Positions 24,010-60,980 of a stretch of DNA of 64,000 nt are shown in pieces. The stretch's first letter is position 1. The number at the start of each line of letters is the position of its first letter. Under the pieces are notes generated by a model, which worked only from the letters and a program-made list of their open reading frames with translations, was not told the origin of the DNA and made no database searches. The stretch comes from Sulfurimonas sp. GTDB lineage: Bacteria; Campylobacterota; Campylobacteria; Campylobacterales; Sulfurimonadaceae. The translations under genes were made by a program, and so were the position numbers. The DNA lies in assembly GCA_028687935.1 (NCBI GenBank), contig JAQTZE010000001.1, forward strand, positions 279,633 to 343,632, in the 5' to 3' direction.

Positions 24010-24190
24010 ATGTTTCCTTGTATTTTAAAAAAATTATATCTCATGGGCTGTTTACATATTGTTTAATATGATTTATAAATGAAATCATTATTCTCTCTTA
24101 TGCCTACTATTATTTTTACTGTGCTAAAATAGCAACAATTTCAAGTGTTACTATATAATTTACTATATAGTAGCCACAATAAGGTTGCGA

Positions 24191-26776
24191 ATGCTACAAG
24201 CATTAATGGGTAAGGTCTTTGGAACATCAAATGATCGAGAGCTAAAACGATATTTTAAAAGAGTAAAAAATATAAATGCGCTAGAGGAGAGATACTCTTC
24301 TTTGAGTGACGAAGCACTTCAGGCTGCGTTTTTAACACTAAAACAGAGTGTAATCAATAAAGAAAAAACATTAGATGATGTTTTGGAAGATTCTTTTGCA
24401 ATTACAAGAGAAGCAGGGAAAAGAGTCCTTGGAATGCGACACTTCGATGTACAACTTGTCGGTGGTATGGTACTTCATGAAGGCAGAATTGCTGAGATGA
24501 AGACAGGTGAGGGTAAAACATTAGTTGCAACCTTACCAATAGTGCTAAACGCAATGCAAGGCAAAGGTGTGCATCTTGTCACAGTCAATGATTATCTTGC
24601 TTCAAGAGATGCAAACGATATGGGTAAGCTCTATAACTTTCTTGGTTATAGTGTAGGTACTATTCTTGAAGATATGCATGATGCAGCTCAAAAACGTGAA
24701 GCTTATGGTTGTGACATTACCTATGGAACAAACAACGAATTTGGTTTTGATTATCTAAGAGATAATATGAGCTATTCACGCGATAATATGGCGCAAAGAG
24801 AACATCACTTCGTTATCGTCGATGAAGTCGATTCTATTCTTATAGATGAGGCAAGAACACCGCTTATCATCTCAGGTCCGACCAATAGAGCGATGCAAGA
24901 CTTTGCAGATGCAAACAATATAGCACTACAACTTACAAAAGATGAACACTTTACTGTAGATGAAAAAGATAAAGTTGTTTTGATCACGGAAGATGGTATC
25001 ACAAAAGCAGAAGAACTTTTCAAAGTTGAAAATCTCTACAGCGCAGAAAATCCATCTCTTCCACACGTACTCGATCAAGCGCTCAAAGCAAACTATCTTT
25101 TTACAAATGATGTAGATTATGTTGTAAGAAATGGTGAAGTTGTCATCGTAGATGAGTTTACAGGCAGACTCAGTGAAGGCAGACGTTTTTCAGAAGGTCT
25201 TCATCAAGCGCTTGAAGCAAAAGAGGGCGTTTCTATTAAAGAAGAGACACAGACACTTGCAGATATTACATTCCAAAATTACTTTAGAATGTATGACAAA
25301 CTTGCAGGTATGACGGGTACTGCTGAAACGGAAGCTACGGAATTTGCTCAGATATATAGCCTTGACGTTGTCTCTATACCGACAAATATTCCTATCACTC
25401 GTGCAGACTTAAATGACCTTATCTATAAAACGGAAGTAGAAAAATTTACTGCTGTTATTGAAACAATCAAAAAACTCTCACAAACGGGACAGCCAGTTCT
25501 TATTGGTACTGCATCGATTGAAAAATCAGAACTGCTGCATACTTTTCTCAAAAAAGAGAAAATTGCACACACAGTCCTAAACGCAAAGAACCACGAACAA
25601 GAGGGTGAAATCATCAAAAATGCAGGTGTGAAAGGCGCTGTAACAATAGCTACAAACATGGCTGGACGTGGTGTTGATATCAAGGTAAGTGAAGAAGTCA
25701 AAGCTCTTGGCGGTCTCTATATCATCGGAACTGAGAGACATGAAAATCGTCGTATAGATAATCAGCTTCGTGGGCGTTCAGGAAGACAGGGTGATGCGGG
25801 AACTACACAGTTTTATCTTTCACTCGAAGATACACTTCTTCGTATATTCGGTTCAGACAAAATCAAGTCTATCATGGAGCGACTTGGTGTTGAAGATGGT
25901 GAATATATCGAATCAAAAATGGTAACTCGTGCTGTTGAAAAAGCGCAGAAAAAAGTTGAAAATATGCACTACGAAGGTAGAAAGCATATCGTTGAATACG
26001 ATGATGTTGCAAATGAGCAAAGAAAAATCGTATACAAGTTCAGAAATCAGCTTCTTAGTAAAGAGTTTGATATTGCTTCAAAAATTAATGACATCAGAAA
26101 TGATTATGTCAAAAATATCCTTCTTTTAGCAGATATTTTTGATGGTGGAACGCGTGAAGATTTCAACCTCAAAAAAGTATCAGAGCTGCTTCAAGAACAA
26201 ATCAACTTTAAACTTGAAAGTGAAGAGTTCGCAAGTTTAGAATATGATGAATTACTCGAAGCACTTGTAGCAAACCTCAAAGCTTCTTATGATGCAAAAA
26301 TGGGTGTCTTAGATGATTCTATCCGTCAAGAAATCGAAAAAGAGTTCTATCTCAAAGAGCTTGATAGTGCATGGAGAGAGCATCTTTATGCTATGGATAG
26401 CATGAAAACAGGTATCAGACTGCGTGCATACAACCAAAAAGATCCTCTTGTTGAGTATAAAAAAGAGAGTTTCTCTCTCTTTGGAGATCTTATCAATGAG
26501 ATCAAGTTTAACACTATTAAAACACTCCATATCATTCAGTTTAGAATGGAATCTGTAGAAGATGAAGCAAAAAGACTTGCAGCAAAACTTGCAGAAGAAA
26601 ATAGAAAAAACAATGAAAACATGCATCTCAATCACTCAAGTGAAACAGATGAGCAATATGAAGAGTCTGTTGATAAAAAAATTGCAAGAAATGATCCTTG
26701 TCCATGTGGCAGCGGTTTGAAATATAAACAATGCTGCGGTAAGAGCGGTCCTAAAAAAGGTGCGTTTGCATCTTGA
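24191..26776 (+). CDS. secA: Preprotein translocase ATPase SecA
   Basis: [41 protein letters not shown]-terminal zinc motif [17 protein letters not shown] at 24191 preferred over ORF-track 24185. Confidence 0.96.
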
Positions 26777-42248: not shown

Positions 42249-42866
42249 CTAACTTCTAATACTTTCCCAAAAAAATTCAACATGCTTTTCAAACTGTGTC
42301 GATAAACCTGTTGTTGAAATTGCATCATATCGCATAAGTGTGATCTGTAATCTTATGTAGAAGAGGGTGGATAAAAACTCATAAGACAACATCATCGGAT
42401 CAGATGAACGAATCAAATTATTTTGCATCATAATAAAAAAACCTTCTGAGAGCGTTTTAATGTTCTTATCATGAAACTCACTCATAAACTGCTCTCTAAG
42501 CTCTTTATTTTGTAATAACTCAATGAGAAGTATCCTAAACATGCTTTCGTTGTTTTTATCAAAGGTAAGCAGCTTATACTGCATAGCATACTTATTTAAA
42601 AAGAGTTTTCCTTTGAGTGCAGCATCTTTGATCTCATCTGGCGTAAAAGAGAAGGGCGATGAGAATATATCTTTCGCTACTGTTAGGAAAATGTCCTCTT
42701 TATTTTTAAAGTGATTATACAAAGCACTCTCTCTTATTCCTACATCTGAAGCTATCTTTCTGACACTCGTCGCTTTGTATCCATGTTCTGAAAACAATCT
42801 TCTAGAAGAGAGTAATATCTTTTCTTTTGTACTTGGCGTTTTCTCTACAGCCCTATTTTCTTGCAT
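42249..42866 (-). CDS. TetR/AcrR-family transcriptional regulator
   Basis: N-terminal HTH: TKEKILLSSRRLFSEHGYKATSVRKIASDVGIRESALYNHFKNKEDIF. Confidence 0.92.
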   Translation of the reverse strand: MQENRAVEKTPSTKEKILLSSRRLFSEHGYKATSVRKIASDVGIRESALYNHFKNKEDIFLTVAKDIFSSPFSFTPDEIKDAALKGKLFLNKYAMQYKLLTFDKNNESMFRILLIELLQNKELREQFMSEFHDKNIKTLSEGFFIMMQNNLIRSSDPMMLSYEFLSTLFYIRLQITLMRYDAISTTGLSTQFEKHVEFFWESIRS

Positions 42867-42881
42867 TTCTAAGCCTTTATA

Positions 42882-42993
42882 TGAACAGTTGTTTCTATTG
42901 GTAAAATTATATAAGAACAGTTGTTAATTAAAGCTTAGATTAAAAAGTGAACAATCGTTCATTTTACGAGATTCAAAAATGAACGATTGTTCT
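42882..42993. promoter_or_regulatory. Cluster of four TetR-type operators
   Basis: TGAACAGTTGTTT (42882), AGAACAGTTGTTA (42914), TGAACAATCGTTCA (42948), TGAACGATTGTTCT (42980); spacing 32, 34, 32 bp. Confidence 0.75.
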
Positions 42994-43040
42994 TATCATA
43001 TGGAAAGCTATATAAAGTATTTTTTTTGTATTATTTCAAA

Positions 43041-43368
43041 GGTACAACAGATAGTGACTTGAATTTTTATATTCAAGAGGAAAGTCCGAGCTGCTGTAAG
43101 ACAGTGTTCCATTTAACGAATGGCCGTAGTAATACGAGGGAAAGTGCAACAGAGAATTAGACTTCTACTATACATTATAGTAGTAAAGGTGAAAAGGTGG
43201 TGTAAGAGACCACCAGTCTTTATAGTGATATAGAGAGCTTGAAAACCCAACATGGCAGCAAGAAACAGATGGTTAGCGTCTTACATTGCTATTGTTTCGC
43301 TAGAGGTACTATGTAAATGGTACAGTAGATTAATGCTATCTAGACAAAACTCGGCTTATAGTTGTACC
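43041..43368 (+). ncRNA. rnpB: RNase P RNA (bacterial type A-like)
   Basis: Conserved gaggaaagtccgagct, acgagggaaagtgc, gaaaacccaacatg, gctatctagacaaaactcggctta; terminal P1 pairing ggtacaac...gttgtacc. Confidence 0.93.
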
Positions 43369-43454
43369 AAAAGAGCATATATGTATTTTCAATAGAATTT
43401 ACATTATGTTAACCAGTACTATAATATACACCAATCTCACAGGAATACTTGCTT

Positions 43455-43828: not shown

Positions 43829-44374
43829 ATGGCAAATGTAGATTTAGTACAATTAACACAAGAGACAAAAAAACTTACTGCAATGATCGTTGAAGATGAA
43901 AAAGTTACGAATGAGCTACTAAGCTCAACATTCAAAAACTTTTTTGCTGATGTACACTCATGCTTTAATGGTGATGAAGCAATCAAGGTATTTAATAGAA
44001 CAAAACCTGATGTTGTTTTCGTTGATATTATCATGCCAGGTATGGATGGTATTGAACTCTCACGTAGAATCCGTGAAGAAAATCCTGGACAAATCATTAT
44101 TGTAATATCTGCAAGTAATGACATTGAAAAGATTTCTGAATCTATCGAAGTTGGTGTAAACAGCTTTATTCAAAAACCAATTGATACGAAAAAAATCATT
44201 GAGCTTTTGACAAACGTTGTGGGTATTATCGCTAAAAAGAAAAAGATAGAGACAAAAACATTTTCTATCTCTCTTCCTCTTGATCTTTATGAGTCTGTAA
44301 ACGAAAACGCAAAGGCAGAAAGTATCTCTAAAAATGCTGTCATAATTAGAGCACTTAGAAGTTTTTACGAATAA
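43829..44374 (+). CDS. Response regulator: receiver domain plus C-terminal ribbon-helix-helix-like domain
   Basis: REC motifs (MIVEDEK, DVVFVDIIMPGMDGIELSRRI, IQKPID) followed by TKTFSISLPLDLYESVNENAKAESISKNAVIIRALRSFYE resembling CopG/Arc RHH. Confidence 0.85.
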   Translation: MANVDLVQLTQETKKLTAMIVEDEKVTNELLSSTFKNFFADVHSCFNGDEAIKVFNRTKPDVVFVDIIMPGMDGIELSRRIREENPGQIIIVISASNDIEKISESIEVGVNSFIQKPIDTKKIIELLTNVVGIIAKKKKIETKTFSISLPLDLYESVNENAKAESISKNAVIIRALRSFYE

Positions 44375-44577: not shown

Positions 44578-45612
44578 ATTCAATAATCAAGTGCAACACA
44601 GTTATTTTTATAGTGTAGCTTCGAGTCATCAATCCATTGTGCAATTTTAGCAAAGAATACTTCATCTGGAGTTTTATATCCGAGTATTTTTCGAGGTCTA
44701 TGGTTTAATTTTTCTTCTATTTGAACGATAAACTGATCAGTTATTGTCTCAAACTTCGTCTTCTTTGGGATATATTCCCGTATCAATCCATTTGTATGTT
44801 CATTCAATCCCCGCTGCCAAGATTTATAAGGTTCAGCGAAATAAAACTCAACTCCAAGTCTTCGTTCAATCAATGCATGATTCGCAAACTCTTTTCCATT
44901 ATCACTGGTAATAGTTTGGATTACTCCTCGAAGTGGTTCCATTAAACGCAGAATTGCTTCAGTTACTTCATAGGCTTCTTTGGTAGGTGCTTTACGCATC
45001 AAGGTAAACTTTGAATGTCTATCTACAAGGGTAACAATACTTTGACAGGACGTGTATGGATAGGTTTTGCTCTTGGGATTTTCCCTCGTAACTCATAGAT
45101 CCCCCGTCGGCTTTTATACTTACGGTGTTTATGTCGTAAATAGTGTGAGAGTTCTTTGTGACCTTCTCGCATACGTCGATAGATATACCGATATATAGTT
45201 TCATGACTAAGACTTATCAGTCCATCTACACTCATTCGTCCGGCTATCTGTTCAGGACTCCATCCTTCTTTGAGTTTAGCCAGGATATATCGATGATGAG
45301 CTTTACTCATCTTCAAATTCTTTCTCTTCTTTTGATATCGAAGTCTTGCACTCACTTGGGCATAGTGGGCAATATAATCCCCACTATCCAACTGATTTCT
45401 CCGTATCTCTCGTCCTATTGTTGATCGATGAACACCAAGTATTTTTGCTATCGCACTTTGGCTTACTCGCTCTCTAATTAAAGCTTCTATTTGGTATCGT
45501 TGTACCATGGTCAATTGGTTGTAGCTCATGAAAGTCCCTTTATCTCTCGTCGGATAAAATCGACTCTAATCTACAACCTCTTGATCATCCCTGTTGCACT
45601 TTAAATTTGAAT
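44578..45612 (-). mobile_element. IS30-family insertion sequence, degraded
   Basis: IS30-like transposase fragments flanked by imperfect inverted repeats ATTCAATAATCAAGTGCAACACAG (44578-44601) and, on the other strand, ATTCAAATTTAAAGTGCAACAGGG (45589-45612). Confidence 0.8.
44580..45529 (-). pseudogene. IS30-family transposase, disrupted between the HTH and DDE domains
   Basis: N-terminal ORF 45023-45529 (MSYNQLTMVQRYQIEALIRERVSQSAIAKILGVHRSTIGREIRRN) and C-terminal ORF 44580-45002 (TITSDNGKEFANHALIERRLGVEFYFAEPYKSWQRGLNEHTNGLIREYIPKKT) lie in different frames. The expected first-Asp segment (GDWE-like) is missing at the junction. Confidence 0.8.
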
Positions 45613-57796: not shown

Positions 57797-58726
57797 ATGG
57801 ATTTTTTAATATTTATAGCCGCTATGTCAGCTTTGGTTTATGGAGCTGATTTCATCATCAAAGAGTCAGAACGTATAGCACTTCACTACAATATCTCTCA
57901 ATTTGTTATCGGTGCGACACTCGTTGCGTTTGGAACTTCACTGCCTGAAATGGCTGCATCTTTGATGGCAGCAGGACATGGAAAAACTGATATGGCAATA
58001 GCAAATGTAGTAGGAAGCGTGACATTTAATATCGTTCTCATTTTAGGTTTAGTCTTTATAATCGCTAAAAATATGAATCCAAAAAGAGATCTTTTTGCAC
58101 TCGATAGCGCTTGGGTTGTCGTTCCTGTAGTATTATTTTTGATTATGATTCAAGATGGTGTTATCAGCAGATTTGATGGCGTTTTATTTTTACTGCTTAT
58201 GGTTTCTTATCTTCTATTTTTGTTTAAAAACGCAAAAGGAGATCTTGATGGTGAGATTGATGAAGAACTCTTAGTAGAAAAATTCAATTGGCTAAAAACA
58301 GTAGCTCTCCTGCTAGTCGGTTTTGCTTTTGTTATCGGCGGCGCACACTTCGTTGTAGAGAGCGGTTCAAATATTGCAAGAGAATTTGGTGTGAGCGAAT
58401 GGATCATCGGTCTTTTTATGATTTCACTCGGTACATCTTTGCCAGAACTTGTAGTCTCTTTAGTAGCCATTAGAAAAGGAAACGCAGATATGAGTATCGG
58501 GAATATCATCGGCTCAAATGTTGCAAATTTTTCTATGGTTTTAGGTTCTGCATCTTTACTTATGCCTCTGAGCATAGATCTTGTAGCAACAAAATTTGAT
58601 ATTTTTATTATGGTAGCAGCGTCGGTGACCCTACTCTTTATCTTAGCGAATAAACTTTATTCAAAAGCAGGCGGAATATTTTTACTCACAATTTTGGCAC
58701 TCTTTGTACAAAACTATCTCGTTTAA
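57797..58726 (+). CDS. Calcium/sodium antiporter (CaCA family)
   Basis: Two alpha repeats: GATLVAFGTSLPEMAASLMAAGHGKTDMAIANVVGS and GLFMISLGTSLPELVVSLVAIRKGNADMSIGNIIGSNVAN. Confidence 0.92.
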   Translation: MDFLIFIAAMSALVYGADFIIKESERIALHYNISQFVIGATLVAFGTSLPEMAASLMAAGHGKTDMAIANVVGSVTFNIVLILGLVFIIAKNMNPKRDLFALDSAWVVVPVVLFLIMIQDGVISRFDGVLFLLLMVSYLLFLFKNAKGDLDGEIDEELLVEKFNWLKTVALLLVGFAFVIGGAHFVVESGSNIAREFGVSEWIIGLFMISLGTSLPELVVSLVAIRKGNADMSIGNIIGSNVANFSMVLGSASLLMPLSIDLVATKFDIFIMVAASVTLLFILANKLYSKAGGIFLLTILALFVQNYLV

Positions 58727-60531
58727 CGTTTCGTTTTAGTTTTCTCCTCTTGTATATAATCAAGTTCTAAAAGCTTGTTAAATATACTTGAGACCATATC
58801 TCCTGCCGCTGCACCACCATGCCCTCCATGCTCTACCAAGACTGATACAACATATTGAGGATTTTTATAAGGTCCATAGGTTGTAAACCAAGCATGTGAT
58901 CTACTGTAGTAGTCCATCTCATGTTCAAGTTGTCTTTTCTTGATGTCTTGCTTGATCGCTACAACTTGCGCTGTTCCTGTCTTTCCAGCAAGGATAACTT
59001 TAGACTTCTTTACATAATTGACAGCTGTTCCACCCGGCATATTACACACCTCAAACATCGCTCTTTGTATCTTTGGAAGTTTTTTGAGTTCCTCTTCTGT
59101 GAGGACATCATGAGGCTGAGGCGCATATACAGTATCTCCTATCTTCTTTGCAAAATGAGGCACTGGAAGTTTTCCCGTAGCCATAAGTGCCGTGTATTGC
59201 GCTATTTGCATAGGTGTGGTAAGAAAATCCCCTTGACCTATTGAGGTATTGATTGTCTCACCAATATTCCATGAGCGATTATATTTTTTTCTCTTCCATT
59301 CACGTGATGGAACCACTCCGATAAACTCATTTGGAAGATCCACTCCTGTTTTTTGACCAAGGCCATAACGAGTCAGACCTTCACTCATCTTTTCATTCCC
59401 TACAATCAAACTTCCCTTGTAGAAGAAATCATCGCAACTCTCACGGATAGCCTTATTAATCTCCGTTTTGCCATGTCCATGCGTTTTCCAACATCTAAAA
59501 ACGCGGCCACCCAAAGGAAGATTAGCCTCACAATTTACACTCCATTTTTCATCGAGTTCTGTTGTAATATAGAGCAGTCCTAAACCCGTTTTGATAGTAG
59601 AACCTGGAGGATAGAGACCATTTACAAGTTTATTAGTAAAGGGATGTTCTAAACTTGCAGAGAGTTCAGAGTACATATTTTGAGACATTCCTGAGACAAA
59701 TATATTGAGATCGTATTCAGGGTAACTACTTGCAGCAAGTATAGAACCATTTACATCCATCACAATAACGGATCCTGACTGTCCTGCAAAAAGTCCTGAG
59801 ATATATTTTTGTAACTCAATATCTATATTGAGTATGAGTTTTTTATCTTCTATGGCACTCTTATAAGAGAGTTCTTCTATCTCTTTGTTATTTGCATTTA
59901 CTTTAATCTCTCTGCGCCCTTCTTCACCCTGAAGATATCCGTTGTAATATTTTTCTAAACCACTTTTACCCGTGTAGCCAATCAATTCAAGTGAACTATC
60001 TTCGTCTATATCTTTTTGGTTTGCACGCGCAACATAGCCGATAATATGTGCAGCAATATCACTATAAGGATAAAATCTTTTTGGAGAAGGAACAATATTG
60101 ACATTATCACGCAGATTTAAGATGGCGTAGACAGGAATAATATCTCCATACTCTATAAAACTGACAACCTCAATAAAAGAATGGTTGTAATAAGAATCTA
60201 CTTTTTTATAGTTTTTAATGATCGATTCACGATCAAGTTGTGGCAGAAGTTTCAGTAATAGATCTAACTCTTCATTAAAACTATCTATATTTGCATCAGA
60301 CATCAAATGTGGTTTGAGTTCGATTTTAAATCCAAGTTTATTGATAGCGATAGGTAGATTATTTCTATCAAGGATTTCACCTCGAACTGGAGCTATTTTT
60401 TCACTCTTAATAGTATTGTTTTGTGAGAGTTTGTCATAGTAGGTGTTAGATTCTACTGCAAGATAAAAAACGCGTCCGATAAGTGCGAGCCAGATTATAG
60501 AAAAGAGCGCAACTATAAATTTTATTTTCAT
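58723..60531 (-). CDS. mrdA: Penicillin-binding protein 2
   Basis: RGEILDRNNLPIAINK; NGLYPPGSTIKTG (SxxK); SIGQGDFLTTPMQIAQY; AGKTGTAQV. Confidence 0.93.
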   Translation of the reverse strand: MKIKFIVALFSIIWLALIGRVFYLAVESNTYYDKLSQNNTIKSEKIAPVRGEILDRNNLPIAINKLGFKIELKPHLMSDANIDSFNEELDLLLKLLPQLDRESIIKNYKKVDSYYNHSFIEVVSFIEYGDIIPVYAILNLRDNVNIVPSPKRFYPYSDIAAHIIGYVARANQKDIDEDSSLELIGYTGKSGLEKYYNGYLQGEEGRREIKVNANNKEIEELSYKSAIEDKKLILNIDIELQKYISGLFAGQSGSVIVMDVNGSILAASSYPEYDLNIFVSGMSQNMYSELSASLEHPFTNKLVNGLYPPGSTIKTGLGLLYITTELDEKWSVNCEANLPLGGRVFRCWKTHGHGKTEINKAIRESCDDFFYKGSLIVGNEKMSEGLTRYGLGQKTGVDLPNEFIGVVPSREWKRKKYNRSWNIGETINTSIGQGDFLTTPMQIAQYTALMATGKLPVPHFAKKIGDTVYAPQPHDVLTEEELKKLPKIQRAMFEVCNMPGGTAVNYVKKSKVILAGKTGTAQVVAIKQDIKKRQLEHEMDYYSRSHAWFTTYGPYKNPQYVVSVLVEHGGHGGAAAGDMVSSIFNKLLELDYIQEEKTKTKR

Positions 60532-60980
60532 AACATACTCACTAAAAAGAATTCAATTACTATATAGTAAATTATATAGTTGCTCAGTAAAGGCTCCTCA
60601 AGATCAAAAGCACTCGAAACAAGAAGAGAAAAAAGATAAAAACCTACATAAGCGAGCAAAATATAGGTGAAACGAATACAAGCTTCGCATCCAAAATTTT
60701 TCACAATCTTAGGTATAACGAATTTGTATATAAGTGAAAAATAGACAATGGAACTAAATGCAAGATACCCTTTGTCCGCTTCATAAACCATCAAACAAAA
60801 CGCAATAGTAAAAACAAAAAGAGCATCATCCTGCTTTACTTTATGCATAAAAAGTACAAATAAAACACCAAATAATGGAGGTAAAATAAGATATATATTG
60901 CTAATGCTTTCGTATATAATAAAAAATATTATATACGAAGCAAGGGCTAGAGGTTTTTGATTAAAGATACTTCGTTGCAT
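60528..60980 (-). CDS. Small polytopic membrane protein, MreD-like by position
   Basis: 150 aa, multiple predicted TM helices; overlaps the mrdA start by 4 bp. Confidence 0.5.
   Translation of the reverse strand: MQRSIFNQKPLALASYIIFFIIYESISNIYLILPPLFGVLFVLFMHKVKQDDALFVFTIAFCLMVYEADKGYLAFSSIVYFSLIYKFVIPKIVKNFGCEACIRFTYILLAYVGFYLFSLLVSSAFDLEEPLLSNYIIYYIVIEFFLVSML

Follow-up and report, generated by a model that had tools for sequence, protein, structure and literature searches.

The 64,000-nucleotide stretch of Sulfurimonas DNA analysed here (the window) carries secA and mrdA on opposite strands, and the dif site lies between them, located with the published Sulfurimonas denitrificans dif as reference (PMC2731167; Table 1). 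A sequence-only reading had reported two identical 23-mers, on the plus strand before secA and on the minus strand before mrdA, and both are present exactly there (0 mismatches), with dif falling between them. Copy 1 occupies the predicted secA leader as claimed; copy 2 does precede mrdA, but it sits within the mreD-like open reading frame (ORF) and is not intergenic. A scan of the window with ≤3 mismatches gave no third match to the 23-mer (0.00 expected from shuffled sequence), and a search of the 2.58-Mb genome for the 20-mer with 0–3 mismatches returned the two window copies and one place with 3 mismatches.

The immediate surroundings of dif include rnpB (the RNase P RNA gene; 43039–43374), with dif directly downstream of it, and a transposase remnant at 44580–45529, 1.2–2.1 kb from dif, that is split into one ORF with the integrase core and another with the helix-turn-helix part. 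A gene for a protein with the unusual pairing of a receiver domain and a ribbon-helix-helix domain is also close by (Table 1).

Table 1. Positions of the dyads, dif and associated features in the window.
Feature	Position	Strand	Remarks
Terminus dyad copy 1	24150–24172	+	core ACTATATA-ATTTAC-TATATAGT at 24150–24171; predicted secA 5' leader; 19.2 kb from dif
Terminus dyad copy 2	60558–60580	-	in 3' end of mreD-like ORF; 26 nt before mrdA ATG; 17.2 kb from dif
Predicted extended -10 promoter of secA (TGTGCTAAAAT)	24120–24130	+	upstream of dyad; kept in 30/30 secA upstream regions
secA	24191–26776	+	
dif core AATAGAATTTACATTATGTTAA	43391–43412	+	identical to published S. denitrificans dif; single copy in genome
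Receiver + ribbon-helix-helix protein	43829–44374	+	0.4 kb from dif; possible terminus-binding candidate
mrdA (penicillin-binding protein 2)	58723–60531	-	
mreD-like membrane protein ORF, 150 aa	60528–60980	-	holds copy 2; named by position; no Pfam match

Architecture and occurrence of the motif

The ideal motif consists of two tandem 12-bp palindromes, (TACTATATAGTA)x2, and is observed in the form ACTATATA-N6-TATATAGT. The consensus from 68 exact sites is TTACTATATA-RTWWAY-TATATAGTAA, with the core form ACTATATA-RTWWAY-TATATAGT. The outer half-boxes are retained and one of the inner halves is looser; 64 of the 68 sites have a complete GT or AC inner half-box on at least one side. The ideal form is seen at mrdA of one genome, G009 (core ACTATATAGT-AT-ACTATATAGT), and a third, overlapping box occurs at secA in G009, G031, and G071. 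Across relatives the arms (ACTATATA...TATATAGT) are retained, and the central hexamer varies and even flips. The identical centres of the two window copies are not a general feature: ATTTAC is simply the most frequent centre (26/68 exact sites), and the two copies of the nearest relative, G016, differ in theirs. Because the dyad is near-palindromic and relatives show the opposite orientation of the central hexamer at secA, the equal orientation of both copies relative to the downstream gene, correct as an observation in the sequence-only reading, has little meaning. The motif ACTATGTA-N6-TACATAGT was considered as a general replacement and rejected, being confined to G032. A literature search for ACTATATAGT returned only papers that, judged by title, concern unrelated subjects.

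Contigs related at mrdA bear the name Sulfurimonas, the closest (JAQTWZ010000008.1) being 90% identical, which places the genome analysed here in Sulfurimonas. Of 63 near-complete Sulfurimonas genomes, 31 carry the exact motif, at 54 sites vs. 3 for the reversed control; many genomes in this comparison are metagenome assemblies. Most bearers have 1–3 exact sites, one clade has about ten when looser matches are included, and most genomes, including the window's own, have just two good sites. About half of the near-complete genomes have no exact site, although dif, secA, and mrdA remain wherever site-less genomes were examined, and the function is therefore dispensable or replaceable. Among 199 genomes sampled from the order, the only bearers outside the genus are two genomes of the sister genus g25 and a single further genome. 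With 0–1 mismatch it is also found inside a putatively WD40-like gene of 705–713 aa (L238 in G089, L221 in G007, L218 in G075, and L213 in G015).

The dyad could in principle be a chance AT-rich repeat: it is AT-rich, and loose matches (≤3 mismatches) in its own genome number 46 vs. 63 for the reversed control. Yet the excess of exact sites over the control across the genus, the conservation of the same positions, and the synonymous-codon constraint in mreD described below make the probability of chance negligible, in agreement with the sequence-only reading. Since loose matches in this genome are no commoner than in the control, they give no hint of a larger regulon, and that idea was dropped.

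The copies at mreD and secA

Copy 2 encodes NYIIYYIV within the mreD-like ORF, and at most Sulfurimonas mrdA loci the element likewise lies at the 3' end of mreD. Among 33 mreD sequences, 16 contain an exact site, vs. a mean of 0.19 after synonymous randomisation with the window's codon usage. The arm isoleucine codons are ATA in 24/24 and 29/29 cases, although the window genes used have ATA for 25% of their isoleucines. Where most other MreD-like proteins have Tyr, those of the window and its nearest relatives have Asn; the AC of the site is nonetheless kept. Selection at the mreD copy acts on the DNA itself.

At secA, the predicted promoter (consensus TRTGNTARAAT) precedes the predicted leader that contains the dyad. 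The dyad starts 17–19 bp downstream of the extended -10 in 21/21 dyad-bearing secA regions, and 17–20 nt separate it from the secA ATG in 21 of 30 genomes, which are all of the bearers. The promoter is retained in the nine genomes that lost the secA dyad, two of which (G020 and G036) have a shortened leader. The SecA tree, with 6 changes, shows a widespread secA dyad that was lost several times.

The sequence-only reading had taken the dyad for an operator overlaid on a promoter and common to secA and mrdA. A conserved, selected DNA element of operator-like form is indeed present, but the promoter operator is contradicted by the position of the secA promoter upstream of the dyad and of copy 2 inside mreD codons. 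A broader version, in which a transcriptional or leader operator co-regulates secA and mrdA while other copies are further targets or noise, draws on both being envelope genes, on the distance of 17–20 nt to the secA start codon, common to all bearers, and on the ability of the secA dyad to form a leader hairpin (folding scores of z -3.4 here and -4.2 in G025), of which the outer flanking pairs are still complementary in several species despite base changes. Against these points stand the promoter's conservation even after dyad loss, the coding location of copy 2, the clustering round dif of other copies that are intragenic or between convergent genes, and the placement of the exact sites of the sister genus elsewhere near dif; we judge co-regulation quite unlikely. 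The same dyad before two genes need not mean a regulon.

A leader hairpin as the only reason for the secA copy was rejected, folding scores being weak in genomes without the dyad (single-sequence folding of dyad-less leaders, z -0.1 to -1.9). Dyad-less secA leaders can carry, in the same place, another inverted repeat of the GRGTGC...GCACT type (G004, G005, G012, and G021); this repeat (cf. window 24137–24190 and L021, L025, L026, and L033) hints at a conserved leader hairpin.

Association with dif

Chromosome-scale contigs contain 20 exact sites, of which 19 are ≤60 kb from dif, where 5% would be expected; the sole far site is that in the putatively WD40-like gene of G089, about 1.03 Mb away. 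Exact sites flank dif not only in the window but also in G002, G009, G010, G011, G016, G031, G071, G085, G088, G089, and G092, and in many genomes the flanking sites are 12.7–35.7 kb from dif on each side. Such paired sites would suit a replication fork barrier of the Tus-Ter or RTP-Ter type flanking the terminus. However, known barriers are polar, asymmetric sites in a fixed orientation, whereas the dyad is a near-palindrome in which the asymmetric centre flips at secA between relatives and holds no steady orientation to dif (on the plus strand, ATTTAC/GTAAAT here and GTAAAT/GTAAAT in G011), and a fork barrier is thus highly improbable.

The secA and mrdA sites are inherited vertically near dif and would not by themselves prove a terminus role; the independent weight therefore lies with the extra sites and the sister genus. 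In G031, a single 2.26-Mb contig, 11 of 16 sites with ≤2 mismatches are no farther than 150 kb from dif (P about 5e-7), as do 9 of 14 when the secA and mrdA sites are set aside (P about 1e-5); the genomes are related and these P values ignore shared ancestry, so that they are indicative only. Many of these loose sites are intragenic, the GC skew of G031 switches sign at the dif region, and G071 has a corresponding cluster. In draft genomes, 6 of 14 extra sites map to the terminus by gene order, the remainder being about as many as the reversed control predicts. A recurrent third site directly follows an ankyrin-repeat gene and lies in some cases where two genes converge; in complete genomes its distance from dif is about 29–55 kb. 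Many further copies are likewise found within genes or where two genes converge.

In the sister genus g25, G185 has exact sites at -33.9 and -5.8 kb from dif and a 1-mismatch site at +2.7 kb, and G233 has an exact site at -34.8 kb. These exact sites have other neighbour genes; mrdA of G185 is present without the motif, and secA was not located in g25. The motif is therefore separate from secA and mrdA, and tied to dif. Closeness to dif is what the dyad copies have in common: the conserved motif is under selection as DNA and is associated with the terminus.

Putative role and comparison with known systems

The dyad is best explained, with reasonable though not high confidence, as a matS-like recognition site of the terminus region in Sulfurimonas and its sister genus, read by a putative protein binder. 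Each 12-bp box would be bound by a protein dimer, probably with two dimers per site; this is the simplest reading of the symmetry of two boxes. Bound sites would lie at places around dif, and the probable task of the complexes is to mark, cluster, or condense the terminus, to tether it to the divisome, or to unload SMC at this location. A protein that organises or separates finished chromosomes would thus probably dock on the dyad; we infer the existence and identity of this protein, as well as its role. The near-constant spacing of the secA copy to promoter and start codon would fit a local role too, which counts against the terminus reading, as do the low number of good sites in most genomes and the lack of exact sites in about half of the genus.

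The main rival to a matS-like site is Xer binding, because the dyad weakly resembles dif: the dyads would be pairs of dif-like half-sites to which XerC/XerD bind in the neighbourhood of dif. A parallel would be the XerD sites of Bacillus subtilis, in which the unloading of SMC at the terminus by XerD is established (cited in PMC12322038). The terminus location agrees with this, as does the geometry (6-bp centre, arms of about 10–11 bp). Dyads centred on ATTTAC agree with dif at 19 of 28 positions, a score that about 0.2–0.3% of shuffled palindromes reach, and 50 distinct exact sites have a mean identity to dif of 16.5 vs. 13.1 when the arms are shuffled (about 2% of controls). The symmetry centre, however, is 1 bp off relative to dif; the XerC arm of dif differs among species (AATAGAA/AAGAGAA) while the dyad arms are unchanged; dif is retained where dyads are lost; and the arms alone are only slightly like the XerC and XerD arms (5.75 vs. 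4.74 and 5.21 vs. 4.64 of 11). We give Xer binding a small chance.

As to the putative binder, MatP (PF06303) was found in 0 of 31 genomes searched, including the window's own, with a positive E. coli control. The receiver/ribbon-helix-helix protein, encoded near dif in the genomes examined, is a possible, unproven candidate. Its DNA-binding domain is the same in G012 and G032, which have no exact sites, and co-variation therefore does not support it as the binder. The TetR regulator next to dif was rejected, the region upstream of its own gene having a different palindrome, GAACRATYGTTC. Two palindromes, GAACAATCGTTC/GAACGATTGTTC, at 42949–42992 upstream of the TetR gene (42249–42866) are probably its own operators.

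Terminus marking and its coupling to division are little understood outside enterobacteria; ZapB and MatP are described as confined to enteric bacteria (PMC7188993). The odds are about even that the MatP-less Sulfurimonas group of the Campylobacterota has evolved an independent terminus-organising system, in which a putative protein binds tandem 12-bp palindromes flanking dif and as few as two sites are enough. A sharp, nearly exact motif of which a small genome has only two copies, on either side of dif, offers direct bait for the binding protein, by which a Ter domain in Campylobacterota becomes a question for a few experiments.

Among known systems, the tidL/tidR insulators of E. coli are two 12-bp palindromes that flank the terminus domain, one of them in a gene's 3' end (PMC3330122), and the dyad box is likewise a 12-bp palindrome; tidL/tidR (GYTGACGTCAGC) lie 50–130 kb outside the Ter domain, whereas the dyads are mostly ≤35 kb from dif. 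ZapT of Caulobacter crescentus, a non-MatP binder, has terminus-biased sites, mostly in ORFs (PMC7188993); no consensus motif was found for these, unlike the dyad, which is a clear motif. The dyad resembles dif/XerCD and the B. subtilis XerD sites in lying at the terminus, in having inverted arms on either side of a 6-bp centre, and in a weak similarity to dif, but a true single-copy dif is separately present, and the dyads occur in several copies and are almost completely symmetric. The 13-bp matS site (GTGACRNYGTCAC) of the Ter macrodomain in E. coli and related gammaproteobacteria differs from the dyad consensus, the dyad being 22–26 bp long, built as two boxes, and unrelated in sequence. 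E. coli has 23 matS sites over 800 kb (PMC3330122), far more than the exact sites of most dyad bearers, and MatP is missing from the 31 genomes searched. Like matS, the dyads are short palindromic sites concentrated at the terminus region around dif (19/20 exact sites within 60 kb) and independent of promoters.
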